Under the pieces are notes generated by a model. That model did not search any database, had not been told where the DNA came from, and saw nothing but the letters and a program-made list of their open reading frames with translations. Below, piece by piece: positions 8,867-52,278 of a stretch of DNA of 64,000 nucleotides. Numbering within the stretch: position 1 is the stretch's first letter; each line of letters begins with the position of its first letter. The DNA comes from an uncultured SAR86 cluster bacterium (GTDB lineage: Bacteria > Pseudomonadota > Gammaproteobacteria > Magnimaribacterales > D2472). The position numbers were made by a program, and so were the translations under genes. The stretch is taken from positions 248,001-312,000 of the forward strand of contig CACKRJ010000001.1 in the NCBI GenBank assembly GCA_902602595.1. The letters are read 5' to 3'.

Positions 8867-9736
8867 TTAATTATCGCCTTTGGACTTATTCAAGTATTTA
8901 AAAAAATCAGACTTAGGATCGATAAGTAAAACATCTGATTTATTATTAAAAGTTGCGTCATAAGCTCTCATACTTCGAGTAAACTCATAAAATTCTGGAT
9001 CCTTAGAGAATGATTCAGCATAAATTGCTGCCGCTGTTGCATCACCATCTCCACGAATTTGTTCAGAAGTTTTATAGGCTTCTGCAAGAATAATAACTCT
9101 TTCTTTATCCGCAGTGGATCGGATTTCATTTGAAAGCTCATTTCCTTCAGCACGCAATTCCTCAGCTAATCTATTTCTCTCTGAGCGCATTCTTTCATAG
9201 ACAGAGTTACTGAGCTCGGGAGGTAAATCAATTCTTTTTACTCTAAAATCAATGATCTCTATACCTAAATCAGATACAGAGTTACCTAGATTTTCTCTCA
9301 TATCGCTCATTAGCTGATCTCTTTCGCCTGAAACTAATTCAGTTACTGTTCTTCTACCAAATTGATTTTTCAGTTCAAATGCAGTTCTTTGTCCAAGCAA
9401 ATTATTTAAATTAATAAAACTTCCGCTAGTAGCATCGTAAAAAGTTCTAACGTTAGTAATTCGATATTTTACGAACGAGTCAACAATAAGATATTTACTC
9501 TCTACTGTTAATATTCTGTTAGGCTCCTCATCGAGAGTTTGAAGTCTCGAATCATATTTTTTTACATTCTGAATAATTGGCAATTTAAAATTTAAACCAG
9601 TTGGAAGATCTGATCTTATGGCTTCACCAAATTGAAAAACTATTCCATCTTCTTTTTCATCAATAACAAATAAGCTATTAAGTATTAATGCAAGAATAAG
9701 TCCTGCAAGAACTAAGAGATTCATTCCTTTAGTCAT
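8867..9736 (-). CDS. hflC: HflC, membrane SPFH protein (modulator of FtsH protease)
   Basis: SPFH/prohibitin-type protein that forms a membrane complex with HflK around FtsH and influences its degradation of membrane proteins. One N-terminal membrane segment (about 5-25) is followed by the SPFH domain, with DEKEDGIVFQFGE at its start and FRVKRIDLPPELSNSVYERM near its end. A coiled-coil-rich Glu/Arg region follows. 289 aa is normal. The start codon overlaps the hflK stop (TAATG), showing tight coupling. Placed upstream of purA, as in E. coli. Confidence 0.96.
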   Translation of the reverse strand: MTKGMNLLVLAGLILALILNSLFVIDEKEDGIVFQFGEAIRSDLPTGLNFKLPIIQNVKKYDSRLQTLDEEPNRILTVESKYLIVDSFVKYRITNVRTFYDATSGSFINLNNLLGQRTAFELKNQFGRRTVTELVSGERDQLMSDMRENLGNSVSDLGIEIIDFRVKRIDLPPELSNSVYERMRSERNRLAEELRAEGNELSNEIRSTADKERVIILAEAYKTSEQIRGDGDATAAAIYAESFSKDPEFYEFTRSMRAYDATFNNKSDVLLIDPKSDFFKYLNKSKGDN

Positions 9737-10773
9737 TAGTCTTCCTCCTGTGGTCTGTTTTGCTCAAGAATTTTGTCTAATGGAAGGTACATCAGATTAT
9801 TACCTCCTTCGACATCCATCAAAACTTTTGTTGAGTTACTGTATAGGCCTTGCAAAGCATCTAGATAAAGTCTGTCTCGAGTAACTTTTGGCGCTTTTTG
9901 ATACTCCGCTAATAATTTATCGAAACGGACAGCCTCTCCTTCTGCATTAGCTACAACCTCTTCTCTATATGCTTCGGCGGCCTGAATTCTTGCAAATGCT
10001 TGTCCTCTGGCTTCTGGAACAATCGAAAGTCCATATCTATCAGCTTCATTTTGTAATTTTTCTTTATCCTCTCTCGCAGCAACAACATCATCAAAAGAAG
10101 CTTTCACGGCAGAAGGCGGATCAGTTTTTTCTATATTAACTTGCTGCACTACAAGCCCAGTTGCATATAAATCTAAATAGCTTTGAAGTCTTGAATTAAC
10201 ATCTTGCGCAATCATTTCACGACCAGTTGTAAGAGTTTCCTCAAGAGTATTATCACCAACAACATGTCGCAATGAACTCTCCGTGGCTTCTCTAAGGCTG
10301 CTTTCTGGATCGCGAACATTCAAAACAAAATCTTTTAGATTTTTGATTCTGTATTGAACAGAAATAGTAACATCAACTAAGTTTTCATCCTTGGTCAGCA
10401 TGTTTGCTGTCTGTGAGTAACGTCTAGTTAAGGCTACATTTTCGACATATCTTTCATCTATTCCAGCTAACATAAAGTTTAAACCTTCGCCGGTTTCTGC
10501 GTGATATTCACCAAACCTCAAAACGACTGCTCTTTCTGGAGAGTCTAATTGATAAATAGACATGCTTGCATAAATAACCAGCAGTCCAATAAATCCATAC
10601 AAAAAAGCTTTTTTTGTTGGAAAGTTAAATCCGTTTCCACCAGAAGATCCATTAGAGCCTGAGCCTTGTTTTCCGAACATGACAGAAAACTTTTTTATCA
10701 AATCATCAAACGAAACTTCGTCTTGATCTTTTCTGCCCCAGGGGTCTTGATTATTTTGATTATCCCAATTCAC
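9736..10773 (-). CDS. hflK: HflK, membrane SPFH protein (modulator of FtsH protease)
   Basis: Partner of HflC in the FtsH-regulating membrane complex. The N-terminus is the Asn/Gly/Ser-rich low-complexity tail typical of HflK (DPWGRKDQDE, then a GSGSNGSSGGNG stretch). A membrane segment (about 55-75) and an SPFH domain (YQLDSPERAVVLRFGEY onward) follow, then a long helical region. Translation begins at GTG, supported by a TAGG-type ribosome site about 8 nt upstream. The usual upstream genes hfq and hflX are missing: miaA is the direct neighbour, 60 nt away. Confidence 0.96.
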   Translation of the reverse strand: MNWDNQNNQDPWGRKDQDEVSFDDLIKKFSVMFGKQGSGSNGSSGGNGFNFPTKKAFLYGFIGLLVIYASMSIYQLDSPERAVVLRFGEYHAETGEGLNFMLAGIDERYVENVALTRRYSQTANMLTKDENLVDVTISVQYRIKNLKDFVLNVRDPESSLREATESSLRHVVGDNTLEETLTTGREMIAQDVNSRLQSYLDLYATGLVVQQVNIEKTDPPSAVKASFDDVVAAREDKEKLQNEADRYGLSIVPEARGQAFARIQAAEAYREEVVANAEGEAVRFDKLLAEYQKAPKVTRDRLYLDALQGLYSNSTKVLMDVEGGNNLMYLPLDKILEQNRPQEED

Positions 10774-10799
10774 TTAGATACCTATAGTTATAAAGTTTT

Positions 10800-10805
10800 A
10801 TTATA
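10800..10805 (-). promoter_or_regulatory. Possible -10 element upstream of hflK
   Basis: Read on the minus strand, the 60-nt gap between miaA and hflK contains a perfect TATAAT. Its distance to the hflK GTG start is suitable for a short leader. No good -35 hexamer is visible at 16-18 nt, so an independent hflK promoter is only a possibility. Confidence 0.35.
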
Positions 10806-10833
10806 AAATTAATTTGGGGGTAAATCCTTAGAA

Positions 10834-11787
10834 TTAAACTATTTCATGCAAATTAAGTTGCTTTTTTAGATGCTCAGCAGCTTCTTCTGTCTGACAAAGA
10901 TCAAAATAGATCAAATTTTCCCATCCTCTCATCCAAGTACATTGTCTTTTAGCAAATTGGCGTGTGGCAAAAAGAGACTTTTCAAATAATTGAGACTTTT
11001 CCAACTTGCCCTCAACTACTTGCAATCCCTGTCTATAATTAATTGCTTTCATTGCAGGATGTTCAGAAGAAATATCAAAAATATTTTGAATATTAACAAT
11101 TTCCTCAAGCAATCTATCTCCAACCAATGCCTCTTGTCTTAACTCTATTCTCTCATGCAGTCTTTCCCTTACTTTAGGGAAAATTCCAAATTCCATTAAT
11201 ATATATTTATCTTTTAATTCACTAGTTTGTTCAATCGAAAGGCTTTCACTTAAGCTCATTCCTGTTGAAGTAATGATCTCAATTGCTCTAATAATTCTTT
11301 GAGAGTCATTAGAATCAATATTTTTTGCTGCTTTAGGATCAAGGCTTTTTAGATCTGTGTGTAGGGCATCTACGCCATCTGTATGAATTTTTTTCTCTAA
11401 CTCATCACGCAGAATCCAGTTCGATGAAGGAAGAGCGCTCATTCCTCTCTTCAGGAGATTAAAGTACATCATGCTGCCACCAACCAACAATGGAATCTTA
11501 TCTCTAGCATGGATCTTATCAATTAAAATTAGAGCAGAATTATAAAAATCTGCAACAGAAAATATAGAATCTAAAGAAATATGGTTAACTAAATGATGAG
11601 GATGTTTTTTTAAAATTACGTTCGAAGGCTTAGCAGATCCAACATTGCATTCCTTATAGACCATGACAGAATCTACACTAATAATCTCCAGGGTTTCAAA
11701 TTGACTTTGCCAATTAATGGCCCAATCAGTTTTTCCCGATGCAGTTGGGCCAAGCAGAAATATTATGGGTTTTTTACTTAGTTTCAA
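10834..11787 (-). CDS. miaA: tRNA dimethylallyltransferase
   Basis: Adds the dimethylallyl group to A37 of tRNAs that read UNN codons. The P-loop GPTASGKT is at residues 13-20. The ISVDSVMVYKECNVGSAKP segment, the PLLVGGSMMYFNLLKRG motif and the C-terminal RQFAKRQCTWMRGW motif are all family hallmarks. 317 aa is normal. The only in-frame start near the P-loop is a TTG, with an in-frame stop just upstream, so a TTG start is inferred. It begins 6 nt after the P-II gene stop. Confidence 0.97.
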   Translation of the reverse strand: MKLSKKPIIFLLGPTASGKTDWAINWQSQFETLEIISVDSVMVYKECNVGSAKPSNVILKKHPHHLVNHISLDSIFSVADFYNSALILIDKIHARDKIPLLVGGSMMYFNLLKRGMSALPSSNWILRDELEKKIHTDGVDALHTDLKSLDPKAAKNIDSNDSQRIIRAIEIITSTGMSLSESLSIEQTSELKDKYILMEFGIFPKVRERLHERIELRQEALVGDRLLEEIVNIQNIFDISSEHPAMKAINYRQGLQVVEGKLEKSQLFEKSLFATRQFAKRQCTWMRGWENLIYFDLCQTEEAAEHLKKQLNLHEIV

Positions 11788-11793
11788 ATACTT

Positions 11794-13364
<1,571 letters not shown>

Positions 13365-13437
13365 ATCAAAGGTATATTTAAATTAATGTAATAATACATT
13401 CTTTAGTTTTTATTTATTCATAGTATTGATCAGATTA

Positions 13438-47295: not shown

Positions 47296-47404
47296 TTTTA
47301 CTATGTTTAAGGATCCTGTATCTCCTTATGGTTAAAGTATTTCTTATTTTGCTGGCAAGAAGGAAAACTATCCTTTTGGGCATAAAGAAAAATAATTAGA
47401 ATAA

Positions 47405-49855
47405 ATGAATAATACAGAATTTTCAGATCACCTTATTCTTATATGCCAAATATTTATTATCTTGATAATTAATTCATCGTGTTCAAGTACAGGAGGTTCT
47501 GGCCCTCAACCAATTAATGAGTTCATAAATCCCACTCAAACAATAGTTGATCAAAGATATGAATTTCAACTATTTGAAAATAAAATGCAGTCTCCTTGGG
47601 GAGACGTCACTTATTCCTATGGCACTAGTGCATTTAGGTCTTCTGATGAATTTCCTTCTAACGAAAAATATAAAATAGAGGATTATGGTTTCTTGCAAGT
47701 TACGTCAAAAGGATCGCATCCAGGTGATAGCTCTAATCAGGATGAAATTACAACATCTGGTCCATGGGTCAATAATGGGCAATGGTTTGAGGCAAATTTA
47801 AATGGAGATGAATTTTCTGACTTGATCTATGTAGGCAATTCAATAGGAACAAGAGAATATGTTCCAGAAGATCTCATGATCACCTTTCTAAACGATGGTA
47901 GCGGTCATTTTCAAATATCTCCAGAAATATTCCTTAATAACACTTTTCCATGTGTTCACGGGGGAACTAATTGGCTTAATACAGATACAAATGATCCAAA
48001 GAAAGAATGCGGAAATCAACAAGACTACTCTAACGGAAAAATCGTAGCTGACTTTAATGGGGATGGGATCAGTGATTATTATGATACAAGCATATTATAT
48101 CTAAGTAATAATGGAAAATTAGAAAATAAGAGTCTCTCAAACTTACCAAGTTTATTTTTTGAAGAAGGTCATGGGCAGATCTTTGCGCATGATGCTTCCC
48201 ATGGCGATTTAGATAATGATGGTGATTTAGACATATTTGTTCCAATCTTTGATAACACAAAACTCGGATACTCGTTTGGTGGAGAAATAGATGAATGCTC
48301 AGGATGCACTCAAAATATACCTTTTACAGCACTAATCAATGATGGTTCAGGGAATTTTAAAGCAAATCATAATTTTCCAGAATTTGAATGGTTAACAGTA
48401 GATTACGATAACCATGGAGCAAATATAGACAAGTTATGGCCAACAACTGCAGTAATTGCTGACTTTAATAATGATGGCTATGGAGATATAGCATTTGGCT
48501 GGTTTAACCCTCGTATCTCAGCTTTATATGGTTTTAGTGAAAACAGTGCTGGAGCAGTTTACCTAAACAATGGATCAAATGATTGGAATCAACTTGGTTT
48601 TATTGAATTGCCTGCAAATTTCTTTGGCTCAAATGGAAATGCTAATGACATGGAGGCATTTGACTTTGATGATGATGGTTTTGTAGATATTGTTATGGCT
48701 TCAACTATTCATGAGCCTTATTATGAATCGAGAGTAATTCAATTTTTTAGAAATATGAATGGGGAGAACTTTGAAGATGTAACTAATGAAAAATATCCTG
48801 ATTATTCTATTTATGCAGATGGAAATCCGTTCTCTAGTTATTGGATTGGTCAAGGAAAAATACGAATAGTAGATTATGACCATGATGGTGATTTGGATAT
48901 TATTGATTCAAATACTAGAACCTATGTACTGTTAAATGAAGACAATACCTATAGATTCTATGATGATTTTGTTGATGAAGATGAGGATAGAATATTATGG
49001 CCAGTAGAGATAGACGGCAAGTACCACTATGATTTTATTGGTTCAAATGTAAAATGTTCTGGAGATTCTTGTACAACAAATTTCTTTCAAGTTTTAGATC
49101 CATTAAATGAAGACTTATTAAAAAATTTTCTATCCAAGGGAAATATTTATTCAAATAGTATTTTGACATCCGTTGCCCAATACAATCATGTAAGAAGGGT
49201 TTCAAGAAACAGCAGATTTATCTATAAAGATACAAGAGAATCTTTTCTTTTAGGTTATAACTCAATTCTAAATGACAAAATAAAATTATTTACCGGTTCA
49301 TCTGAGGGAAAATTGCACGGAAATTTTATTGGCATATCTAAAAACATATTTTCAGTAAGAACTGGTTTAATTTTTTCAGATAATTATTCAAAAAATATTA
49401 GCAATGTAGATTTTTTAGGAAGCTCATTTGCAAGATTAGAATTTAAAACATCTTCAGTATTTGTTGAAAAATCGACAGTTTTGAAGAACTTGATTTTAAA
49501 TTTTGGGATTGCGCATGAGAAAATTTTTGTAGACTCATTTAAAGACATTGGCAGTTTTCAGAATATAGATTTTAAAAAATTAAACCTGAAAAGTCATAGT
49601 TACTTTATTGATCTGGATTACCCATTCACCCTCCTAGGCTTTACTGGGAATATAGGAATTAGCTCCTCAAAAAGAAATTTCACTTCTGCTCTTTACTTTG
49701 AATCTATAAATAATCTCATGTTCCCTTTAAAACCAAAAATGAACTACTTTGATGGAGAGCTAAGTCTTAATAGGGGTCCATTTTTTCTTTCAATCAAACA
49801 TCTCGAAGACAGGCCTCCGATAATTAATGTGGGTTTTAATATAAACATTAGATAA
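47405..49855 (+). CDS. Large FG-GAP/VCBS-repeat lipoprotein with a beta-rich C-terminal domain
   Basis: 816-aa exported protein. A hydrophobic N-terminus ends in a possible lipobox before C26 (INSSC). Residues about 110-510 carry at least five calcium-loop repeats of the FG-GAP/VCBS type: DFNGDGISDYY, DLDNDGDLDIF, DFNNDGYGDIA, DFDDDGFVDIV and DYDHDGDLDII, suggesting a beta-propeller. Eight Cys may form disulfides. From about 600 the sequence alternates polar and aromatic residues and ends in NVGFNINIR, which could be a small outer-membrane barrel or adhesion domain. The binding partner is unknown. Confidence 0.82.
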   Translation: MNNTEFSDHLILICQIFIILIINSSCSSTGGSGPQPINEFINPTQTIVDQRYEFQLFENKMQSPWGDVTYSYGTSAFRSSDEFPSNEKYKIEDYGFLQVTSKGSHPGDSSNQDEITTSGPWVNNGQWFEANLNGDEFSDLIYVGNSIGTREYVPEDLMITFLNDGSGHFQISPEIFLNNTFPCVHGGTNWLNTDTNDPKKECGNQQDYSNGKIVADFNGDGISDYYDTSILYLSNNGKLENKSLSNLPSLFFEEGHGQIFAHDASHGDLDNDGDLDIFVPIFDNTKLGYSFGGEIDECSGCTQNIPFTALINDGSGNFKANHNFPEFEWLTVDYDNHGANIDKLWPTTAVIADFNNDGYGDIAFGWFNPRISALYGFSENSAGAVYLNNGSNDWNQLGFIELPANFFGSNGNANDMEAFDFDDDGFVDIVMASTIHEPYYESRVIQFFRNMNGENFEDVTNEKYPDYSIYADGNPFSSYWIGQGKIRIVDYDHDGDLDIIDSNTRTYVLLNEDNTYRFYDDFVDEDEDRILWPVEIDGKYHYDFIGSNVKCSGDSCTTNFFQVLDPLNEDLLKNFLSKGNIYSNSILTSVAQYNHVRRVSRNSRFIYKDTRESFLLGYNSILNDKIKLFTGSSEGKLHGNFIGISKNIFSVRTGLIFSDNYSKNISNVDFLGSSFARLEFKTSSVFVEKSTVLKNLILNFGIAHEKIFVDSFKDIGSFQNIDFKKLNLKSHSYFIDLDYPFTLLGFTGNIGISSSKRNFTSALYFESINNLMFPLKPKMNYFDGELSLNRGPFFLSIKHLEDRPPIINVGFNINIR

Positions 49856-49875
49856 GTTTTAATAGTTTTTAATAA

Positions 49876-49934
49876 TGGTGGGCCCGGGAGGACTCGAACC
49901 TCCGACCAATGGATTATGAGTCCACTGCTCTAAC
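49876..49934 (-). repeat. tRNA-CAT 3' fragment (attL-like copy)
   Basis: Identical to the last 59 nt (including CCA) of the tRNA gene at 51464-51540: anticodon arm, variable loop, T arm and acceptor 3' strand. Homology ends in the D-arm side (GCTCTAAC, then unrelated sequence), so it cannot be a functional tRNA. It lies just after the VCBS gene. Confidence 0.92.
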
Positions 49935-49976
49935 TTAAAAATGCTTTTAGAATGGGGGCTAGAAACCTATATTTAA

Positions 49977-50057
49977 TGGTTACCAACTGGTTACCAAAAT
50001 TTTGCCAATTTTGAGAGAAATTTTATAACTCACTTTGTGGTTACCATATGGTTACCA
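49977..50057. repeat. Two pairs of TGGTTACCA repeats (possible integrase arm-type sites)
   Basis: Perfect TGGTTACCA copies start at 49977, 49988, 50038 and 50049. Within each pair the spacing is 11 bp, and the pairs are 61 bp apart. Each 9-mer is a near-palindrome (TGGT-T-ACCA). Located about 40-120 bp inside the element from the tRNA fragment, they fit arm-type binding sites or an operator array. The surrounding 298-nt gap contains no ORF. Confidence 0.7.
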
Positions 50058-50102
50058 AGATTTTTCATTATTTTCAGCTACAGTGTTCTGCAAAAATAAA
50101 AG

Positions 50103-50115
50103 TACTTGACAAGTA
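50103..50115 (+). promoter_or_regulatory. Possible operator overlapping a -35 box upstream of the COG0523 gene
   Basis: TACTTG-A-CAAGTA is a perfect 6-bp inverted repeat around one base, and its centre contains TTGACA, a consensus -35. A convincing -10 at the right distance is not seen (TGATTA or TTAACT at best). COG0523 genes are often Zur-controlled, but this sequence does not match the usual Zur box well. Confidence 0.4.
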
Positions 50116-50153
50116 TGCTACTCTGAATGATTAACTTTTCTTAGGATTCCAAA

Positions 50154-51368
50154 ATGCAAAATAATGTATCTAACAGATTACCTGTTACTGTGCTCTCTGG
50201 CTTTCTAGGGGCTGGGAAAACAACTGTTCTAAGTCACATACTTAATAATCGTGAAGGCAAAAAAGTAGCCGTTATTGTTAATGATATGAGTGAAATTAAT
50301 ATCGATGCAGCCATGATCAAAAGCGATGTATCGCTTAATCATAGCGAGGAAAAATTAGTTGAAATGAGTAATGGTTGCATTTGCTGCACACTGCGTGAAG
50401 ATCTGCTCCTAGAGGTTAATAAGCTAGCAAAAGATAATAAATTTGATTATTTAGTGATTGAATCAACAGGAATTTCAGAGCCATTGCCCGTTGCTGAAAC
50501 TTTTACTTTCGCAGATGAAGAAGGTATTTCTCTATCAGATGTAGCAAAGCTAGATACCATGGTAACCGTCGTCGATGCTGTTAACTTCTTAAAAGATTAC
50601 GAGGAAGCAAAGTACCTTCAAGATACTGGAGAATCATTGGGCGAGGATGATGAACGCAGTGTAGCTGATCTGTTAGTTGATCAGATAGAATTTGCTGATG
50701 TTCTTTTAGTTAGCAAAATAGATTTAGTAGATGCAGAAGATATTGAAAAACTTAATGCCATTCTTAAAAGTCTCAATACGCACGCTAAAATCATTCCAAT
50801 AACTCAAGGCCAGGTCTCTACTGATGATGTCCTTAATACCGGCCTCTTTGATTTTGAAAATGCAAGACAAGCTCCAGGATGGTTAAAAGAAATGCGTGGT
50901 GATCATATTCCTGAAACAGAGGAATACGGCATCAGTAGTTTTAGCTATGTTGCACGTCGCCCTTTTTATCCACAAAAGTTTTATGAGTTCCTTCACGGAA
51001 CTGAGCAATATGGAAAATTAATTCGATCAAAAGGCTTTTTTTGGTTAGGGTCTCGCCTTGAATATGCTGGTCAATGGAGTCAAGCAGGCGGGATTGCAAG
51101 ATATGGTTTTGCAGGAAGATTTTGGAAATCTGTTCCGAAACAGGATTGGCCTACAGACAGAGAGTATCTTGAATCAATTGAAGAATCATGGGTTGAGCCT
51201 TTTGGTGATATGCGTCAGGAATTAGTTTTTATTGGTCAAAACCTTAATAAAACTGCGATGATTGATGCTTTAAATGATTGCTTGGTATCTGAAGAGGATC
51301 TTGATAGAGGAGAAGATTTTTGGGAATCTTTGAGCGATCCTTTTCCACCATGGTCAGAAATTCAATAA
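50154..51368 (+). CDS. CobW/COG0523 family GTPase, putative zinc metallochaperone
   Basis: 404-aa G3E-type GTPase. It has the P-loop GFLGAGKTT (about 16-24), the metal-binding CXCC motif [11 protein letters not shown] (C75, C77, C78), the IESTGISEP switch and SKIDLVD as guanine-specificity motif. The CobW C-terminal domain follows and the protein ends in [11 protein letters not shown], as in complete homologues. These proteins move zinc (or cobalt in other subgroups) to target enzymes under metal limitation. It is the only intact gene between the two tRNA repeats, and its local base composition looks somewhat less AT-rich than its neighbours by eye. Confidence 0.93.
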
Positions 51369-51376
51369 AAAAATAA

Positions 51377-51463
51377 TGGAAAACACTAAAGCCGTATGCT
51401 GCTAAGTCACTTCGTAAAGAGTTAAGCAAACGAATAGAGCAAATGACTCGATTGGGTTATTAG
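51377..51463 (+). other. Orphan 28-codon reading frame ending at the att-like junction
   Basis: Between the GTPase gene and the tRNA a frame runs from just after an in-frame TAA (51374-51376) to a TAG that touches the tRNA repeat. It reads WKTLKPYAAKSLRKELSKRI, then EQMTRLGY. It has no start codon near its beginning, so it looks like the tail of a lost gene or chance. No family was recognised. Confidence 0.3.
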
Positions 51464-51522
51464 TGGTGGGCCCGGGAGGACTCGAACCTCCGACCAATGG
51501 ATTATGAGTCCACTGCTCTAAC
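51464..51522 (-). repeat. 59-bp direct repeat inside the tRNA gene (attR-like)
   Basis: The 3' part of the tRNA gene, perfectly matching the fragment at 49876-49934. In a tRNA-integrated element this would be the junction that restores the tRNA. Confidence 0.85.
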
Positions 51523-51540
51523 CAACTGAGCTACAGGCCC
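51464..51540 (-). tRNA. tRNA with CAT anticodon (Ile2 or elongator Met)
   Basis: A complete 77-nt cloverleaf with encoded CCA: acceptor GGGCCTG/CGGGCCC, D arm GCTC...GAGC, anticodon loop CTCATAA, variable loop and T loop GGTTCGAGTCC. The CAT anticodon fits elongator Met or lysidine-modified tRNA-Ile2. The GACTCATAATC and TTGGTCG context resembles E. coli ileX, so I lean to Ile2, but this is not certain. Its 3' 59 nt are duplicated at 49876-49934. Confidence 0.95.
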
Positions 51541-51621: not shown

Positions 51622-52278
51622 ATGGGTTATTATTCTTATATGATTAATTTAGATGGAGTCCAATCTTTTGCAGAGGGTGGTAACAGGAAATGTTACATCA
51701 ATCCAACAAATCCAAAAAGGTGCCTCAAAGTACTTCATGAGAATATCTTGCAGAATCTCCAGAAAAATTCAGCTTGGTATAAGCATCTAGGAAATAGTGA
51801 TGGTCTTGATGATAATTTACGTGAAGAAAAGGCATATAAACAAAAAGCCATTAAATATCCAATAAATTCATCTATTTGGGATCATTTAGCTAAGTGGTAT
51901 GGAATGGTTGAAACAAACTTAGGGCCTGCATCAGAAACTGAGCTTATTACAAATGATGGAGAAATCGCGGAGACTTTAGAAGCGTATCTTTTTAGAGAAG
52001 GGTTAACCCCAGAGATAAAAACAGCATTAAGCACCTTTGAATCTTGGCTTAGAACTCATCAGGTATTGACTAAAAATATCATCCCTCATAATGTTGTTAT
52101 TAAAAAAGAAAATGGACCTTTAACCCTGAAGATAATTGACGGACTAGGAAGCAAATCATTCATACCGCTTCCTAAATATAGTAAATTTTTTGCAAGAATC
52201 TATGTCGATAGACGCATAGATCTAATGTGGAGCAGAATTCATTGGGACCTAAGCGGCAGAATTGGAAATTGGAAATAA
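51622..52278 (+). CDS. YrbL-like protein (PhoP regulatory network family)
   Basis: 218-aa protein of the YrbL family. Typical features are FAEGGNRKCYINPTNPKRCLKV near the start, resembling a kinase-like glycine and lysine region, then YGMVETNLGPA in the middle and a C-terminal KIIDGLGSKSFIPL segment that aligns with the metal-binding D-G of kinase-like folds. In enterobacteria yrbL is PhoP-regulated, but its role is unknown. An internal Met at residue 7 is an alternative start. It converges on rpoD with 5 nt between. Confidence 0.8.
   Translation: MGYYSYMINLDGVQSFAEGGNRKCYINPTNPKRCLKVLHENILQNLQKNSAWYKHLGNSDGLDDNLREEKAYKQKAIKYPINSSIWDHLAKWYGMVETNLGPASETELITNDGEIAETLEAYLFREGLTPEIKTALSTFESWLRTHQVLTKNIIPHNVVIKKENGPLTLKIIDGLGSKSFIPLPKYSKFFARIYVDRRIDLMWSRIHWDLSGRIGNWK

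Follow-up and report, generated by a model that had tools for sequence, protein, structure and literature searches.

A zigA-carrying segment at a SAR86 tRNA gene, probably a non-autonomous, site-specifically integrated cassette

How did a partial copy of a tRNA gene come to lie about 1.6 kb from the intact gene, with a single metallochaperone gene between the two, in the genome of an uncultured SAR86 bacterium? The segment in question spans positions 49876–51540 of the 64,000-nucleotide stretch analysed here (the window) and ends at a tRNA(CAT) gene. Few recognisable mobile elements are present in the genomes of SAR86, a streamlined and mostly uncultured lineage that abounds in the surface ocean, which makes its gain and loss of genes hard to explain. 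An initial annotation had read the segment as an integrative element, pointing to a 59-bp copy of the tRNA 3' end opposite the intact tRNA in the orientation that integrases produce. The two copies are in direct orientation and match perfectly over 59 bp (extendable to 66 bp at 97% identity), and their anticodon loops are 1,588 bp apart. That reading is supported in its main points, and the segment is probably a non-autonomous, site-specifically integrated tRNA cassette, comparable to a cis-mobilizable element (CIME) or an additive island and inserted by an integrase acting in trans, or else what is left of such a cassette.

The initial annotation had proposed that a related genome with one tRNA and no fragment would support an insertion, and such a genome was found among the 203 SAR86 genomes searched. 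In G014, which belongs to the window's genus, positions 9752–12276 align to window positions 47404–49934 with 95.2% identity over 2,531 bp. This stretch comprises the FG-GAP gene, the spacer and the tRNA 3' half, which in G014 is part of an intact tRNA directly after the flank; that tRNA, at 12218, can be aligned with the window's intact tRNA as well. G014 thus has the exact empty site within the genus. The intact tRNA, its 59-bp copy and the unoccupied locus show that the element borders a tRNA gene. In G015 and G019, DUF411 lies directly before the tRNA. G001 and G020 carry the window's left flank and a tRNA half followed by other genes; fragment and tRNA are on separate contigs in these two genomes, and the insert size is a lower bound.

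Other cargo between repeats of the same kind, also anticipated by the initial annotation, is present in about a dozen SAR86 genomes. A scan of 96 tRNA loci located tRNA halves in G008, G024, G054, G001, G020, G136, G137, G153, G157, G182 and G171, with a further one on a separate contig in G034; the matches in G137 (38/45) and G182 (41/45) are weaker. Where fragment and tRNA share a contig, they are 1,200, 1,301, 1,703, 1,862, 1,716, 5,227, 1,607, 905 and 1,703 bp apart. The inserts are small and hold one or two genes in most cases. The cargo comprises zigA, DUF411 with zigA, a glutathione transferase (GST)-like gene, a purple acid phosphatase, PssA with Psd, a polytopic membrane protein that in some inserts is accompanied by a MarR-type regulator, and a set of PhoD, metallophosphoesterase, GT4 glycosyltransferase and aquaporin-family genes, so that variable cassettes are present at tRNA(CAT) in relatives. 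In nearly all inserts the tRNA identity stops at, or a few bases from, the TTATGAG anticodon loop; in the window copy it runs 14 bp beyond the loop. A break at the anticodon loop, shared here by inserts with unrelated cargo, is the behaviour of a site-specific integrase that crosses over there during tRNA integration. At one locus (L140), zigA and the tRNA are separated by an insert with a purple acid phosphatase, whose tRNA half abuts zigA, an arrangement that shows accretion; at another (L119), a tRNA half lies beyond a DUF411–zigA pair.

The repeats inside the segment, described in the initial annotation as resembling integrase arm sites, bear out that description. The window holds four copies of TGGTTACCA (at 49977, 49988, 50038 and 50049), all of them between the tRNA copies and arranged as two pairs with an 11-bp period; shuffling gives an expectation of 0.28, and no shuffle reached four. 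Among the SAR86 genomes the paired motif occurs at three places only, each within 1.6 kb of tRNA(CAT). The exact pattern TGGTTACCANNTGGTTACCA was matched at 32 loci of the GTDB genome collection, 8 of which lie within 300 bp of a tRNA predicted by ARAGORN, compared with a background of 0.5% in the same loci; at L215, L230 and L221 the site lies a short way upstream of an integrase, and at L212 and L216 it is found at a tRNA piece. On the IMG/VR viral contig L077, two TGGTTACCA pairs flank a tRNA-Lys core, one of them just before an integrase with the domains PF13356, PF22022 and PF00589. Because the pairs are found at tRNAs, before integrases and around the L077 tRNA-Lys core, they are identified, by motif and context, as integrase arm-type sites. 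A role of TGGTTACCA as a zigA operator was considered and set aside, since the motif is absent upstream of zigA in G021, G050 and G059 and adjoins integrases and tRNAs elsewhere. In G032, of the same family but another genus, the block around the second arm pair is followed by different open reading frames. As a separate observation, TGGTTACCA-N2-TGGTTACCA pairs adjoin tRNA 3' ends at loci L205, L207, L209, L210, L213, L217, L218, L225 and others, which come from phyla as unrelated as Firmicutes, Armatimonadetes and Neisseria; this suggests a widespread arm motif with which tRNA-integrated elements could be found.

Table 1. Features of the tRNA(CAT) segment and its left flank, in window coordinates.
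Feature	Coordinates	Strand	Evidence or remark
FG-GAP repeat protein, left host flank	47405..49855	+	G014 homologue abuts intact tRNA (empty site)
Displaced tRNA 3' part, 59 bp, far end of element	49876..49934	-	Repeat; same flank with intact tRNA in G014
Anticodon loop TTATGAG, inferred crossover region	49914..49920	.	Partner 51502–51508 in intact tRNA; in inserts with unrelated cargo identity ends here or a few bases away
Integrase arm pair 1, TGGTTACCA-N2-TGGTTACCA	49977..49996	+	+56 and +67 from loop
47-bp block around arm pair 2	50019..50065	+	96% identity to G032 at this tRNA locus
Integrase arm pair 2, TGGTTACCA-N2-TGGTTACCA	50038..50057	+	+117 and +128 from loop
zigA, zinc metallochaperone GTPase; sole intact gene of the element	50154..51368	+	NF038288, 688 bits (cut-off 600); PF02492 and PF07683
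Intact tRNA(CAT), Met or Ile2; integration target	51464..51540	-	ARAGORN; 77/77 identical in most SAR86 loci examined

The gene behind the arms had been annotated as a COG0523 GTPase, the only intact cargo, with no integrase beside it. All of this stood, and the assignment can be made more specific, as the product passes the NCBIfam equivalog for ZigA (Table 1); its frame is the only one of at least 70 amino acids within the segment. A similarity search detected neither an integrase nor an integrase remnant in 49876–51540. A recombinase profile built from 12 Arm-type integrases and two recombinases of the window's own genome likewise found no tyrosine recombinase when run on the window together with the 96 tRNA loci (1,524 open frames in all); the same profile found the integrases of a control set. 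The own genome encodes two PF00589 proteins, which are not near the tRNA site and give the impression of XerC and XerD.

The position of zigA can be compared with that of real integrases. PF13356 integrases are present in 12 of the 203 SAR86 genomes. In SAR86 a tRNA half and arm repeats immediately precede these integrases. At L103, arms at +45, +57 and +86 from the loop are followed by the integrase frame, and L105, L097 and L099 have a like layout with other arm sequences. In the window, zigA comes after arms at the offsets given in Table 1; in L051 the arms differ in sequence (TGATAACTT), lie at +55, +66, +130 and +141, and are followed by the GST-like gene. A constant layout with changed arm letters has the look of co-evolving arm sites. 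zigA stands in the slot that the integrase occupies in autonomous SAR86 elements.

Movement at the present small size is evident for a sibling unit that also lacks an integrase. The inserts of G008 (family f1) and G054 (family f2) are 92% identical over 1,073 bp, and their final 150 bp, tRNA included, agree at 90.7%. Neither the 2-kb left flanks nor the 750-bp right flanks showed any similarity, and the rpoD genes of the two genomes are 97.5% (G008) and 63% (G054) identical to that of the window. Because the inserts are 92% identical while the flanks are unrelated, these comparisons indicate that an integrase-less unit of 1.2–1.7 kb moved between families at tRNA(CAT). Both ends are shared by a third locus, L148, which has different cargo. 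Transfer between lineages is seen for this sibling unit (L039/L061); the window's unit shares just the 47-bp block with another genus. Three loci (L039 10910–12186, L061 10951–12730 and L157 6085–7864), from two SAR86 families, have a second type of end, in which the tRNA side bears TGTTCACA/TGTTCTCA arm pairs and the fragment side a conserved sequence, together with a membrane protein without a Pfam match.

The history of zigA itself is mixed. It is present in 33 of the 203 genomes, and its tree mostly follows genera, with G000 and G021 as sisters. A single zigA clade for family f1 is rejected (p-AU 0.0048, approximately unbiased (AU) test, chosen after the tree was seen), as the clade also takes in G050 and G059, both from family f4; from this tree zigA seems to have crossed families too. 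The initial annotation had proposed that the element spreads metal-limitation genes. This holds only in part, since zigA is also an old neighbour of the tRNA in several SAR86 genera; the gene is both an old resident and mobile cargo of the tRNA(CAT) site. At L046 (G003) and L047 (G021), a znu-like/COG0523/WD40 cluster to which zigA belongs lies beside the tRNA. G003 has lost this zigA through an internal deletion that joins the start and end regions of the gene and leaves both ends in place.

The segment probably arose by a mechanism of the following kind. A circle with zigA, both integrase arm pairs and a tRNA 3' half would recombine at the anticodon loop of the tRNA(CAT) gene. The half brought by the circle would restore the tRNA, making the 3' half within the intact gene the element's copy, and the original host half would be pushed to the far end, where it would be the 59-bp fragment. 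The junction of the excised circle (attP) would read: element end GATTGGGTTATTAG, tRNA 3' half, TCCACTGCTCTAACTTAAAAATGC and arms. The unit probably derives from a tyrosine-integrase element of the Arm-DNA-bind_3 type, with the integrase-proximal attachment arm kept and zigA in the integrase position. The integrase for movement would come in trans from an incoming phage or element, and any continued mobility of the window copy would depend on it. After insertion, further spread by homologous recombination or tandem accretion would be possible.

Several observations weigh against this account. The genomes are mostly drafts, and G014, the empty-site genome, is 63% complete. At least 20 of the 33 SAR86 carriers have zigA within 8 kb 3' of tRNA(CAT), sometimes abutting it, and such adjacency without a fragment is common, so that some zigA placement appears to be vertical. 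None of the 12 SAR86 PF13356 integrases was seen at tRNA(CAT). The initial annotation had also suggested a search for integrases that use these arms at this tRNA, and no such helper was found in the SAR86 genomes or IMG/VR. In IMG/VR the arm pattern occurs on 6 contigs, of which L077 alone is linked to an integrase, at tRNA-Lys; the TGTTCACA arm pattern gave one chance match in a phage repeat, and zigA a single relative (39%) on a 379-kb contig. Pieces of 42 and 25 bp from the tRNA 3' half matched just two T4-like phage contigs there, each with a complete, identical tRNA. Phage and plasmid records yielded, among the matches listed, only tRNA or distant cobW/zigA-type similarities to the segment. 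Finally, the segment has a tRNA half on both sides and arms on the fragment side; no TGGTTACCA arm site was seen on the tRNA-proximal side, and the window copy may be crippled for lack of it.

This last observation is also the reason to ask whether the window copy is a fossil, that is, a larger autonomous element with its own integrase that eroded to one attachment arm, a tRNA fragment and a selected zigA and is now immobile. Decaying traces of such inserts in relatives (L055, L050, L068) fit erosion as well, and we give a fossil somewhat less than an even chance. Against it, minimal integrase-less units recur at 0.9–1.9 kb, one of them must have moved at its present small size to be 92% identical between families, and zigA abuts the tRNA side just as the cargo of other units does. 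An integrase need not be involved at all if zigA and a tRNA half were brought in by a RecA crossover within the tRNA, or by exchange of the whole flanking region. The 45–77 bp of tRNA homology at both ends would permit this, and it would explain fragment-free zigA–tRNA junctions such as that of G050, where the neighbour's terminator is replaced; yet the breakpoints coincide at the anticodon loop despite unrelated cargo, and the arm sites lie at the distance of real integrase attachment sites, which makes homologous recombination unlikely as the origin of the segment.

A simple ancestral gene order, with zigA always beside tRNA(CAT) and the 59-bp repeat an unrelated partial duplication, would suit both the frequent proximity of zigA to this tRNA and a tree that mostly follows genera. 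It is weakened by the empty site, where the G014 flank is joined directly to the tRNA, by the position of the window's zigA inside a fragment-bounded segment behind integrase arms, and by the rejection of an f1 clade in the post hoc test; we regard it as very improbable. A tRNA cassette integrated with outside help, intact or as a remnant, is the reading we retain. Beyond the single locus, we tentatively outline a SAR86 cassette system, an idea that we doubt rather more than we believe: it would be integron-like without a resident integrase, with mostly one- or two-gene units, each comprising a tRNA 3' half and arms, docked into tRNA(CAT) by the integrases of passing phages or elements, the newest beside the tRNA, and traded between families under zinc, phosphate or lipid limitation.

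Among known systems, the nearest published kind, as far as the descriptions compared extend, is the additive tRNA cassette of Actinomarinales and Methylopumilus, and conceptually the CIME. The additive flexible genomic island (fGI) cassettes of Ca. Actinomarinales are at tRNAs and are reported to have been transferred between genera (PMC7771536), and at tRNA-Lys fGI-2 of Ca. Methylopumilus takes inserts that range from 330 bp to 42 kb (PMC10872708). These are other lineages and mostly other tRNAs, and the portions of the two papers compared describe them without integrase arm sites, cargo in the integrase slot or an anticodon-loop crossover (PMC7771536, PMC10872708). A CIME is defined as a decayed derivative of an integrative and conjugative element (ICE) or integrative and mobilizable element (IME) (PMC5704250), and the ssrA islands of Dehalococcoides lack an integration module (PMC3146451). 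Like a CIME, the segment has no integration or transfer genes, and relatives show tandem accretion; attachment sites may be retained at both ends, with a tRNA half on either side but arms seen on the fragment side only; the SAR86 units differ in being far smaller, in that one moved between families, and in that no remnant of an ICE or IME was found in the segment.

The likeness to tycheposons proposed in the initial annotation is partial. Tycheposons are 4–200 kb with a tyrosine recombinase (as cited in PMC10872708). The tRNA border (tRNA-Met(cat) is among the tycheposon targets mentioned) and the nutrient-related cargo, with zigA in the window and phosphate-type genes in sibling inserts, agree; two stated features do not, as the SAR86 element is 1.6 kb and has no tyrosine recombinase. 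Arm-DNA-bind_3 (P4-type) elements at L097, L099, L103, L105 and L077 share the order of tRNA half, arm pair and arm pair, in L077 with the same arm sequence as the window, and differ in having the integrase right behind the arms and in using other tRNAs. The integron gene cassette is a functional analogy only, the SAR86 attachment sequence being a tRNA half. Neither the arm-site reading nor the cross-family identity of an integrase-less unit was found in the portions of the literature compared.

If the retained reading holds, tRNA(CAT) would be a docking point for gene swapping without a resident integrase, and by taking up integrase-less units of one or two genes it would let such lineages acquire genes for zinc, phosphate or lipids at little cost. 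Island finders based on integrases would miss such units; the signature of a tRNA half with arm sites is directly searchable in single-cell genomes and viromes.

Some minor features of the locus were recorded. The 5.2-kb tRNA-half-bounded insert of G153 (L144, 3738–8965) has PhoD and a metallophosphoesterase beside the GT4 glycosyltransferase and an aquaporin-family gene, and its metallophosphoesterase/GT4 pair possibly serves lipid remodelling under phosphate limitation. An apparent tandem array of three full tRNAs at L109 (G112, 9132–13414) was set aside for its runs of N and repeated DUF411/YrbL flanks; the assembly has probably mixed strains whose inserts differ. The two T4-like phage contigs in IMG/VR carry the complete tRNA(CAT), 100% identical to the SAR86 tRNA, beside tRNA-Arg (L082 1874–1950, L083 7551–7627). 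On the 5' side of the window's tRNA, between it and rpoD, lies a YrbL-family gene (51622–52278) that some relatives have and others, such as G014, lack; it constitutes a second variable gene at the locus.
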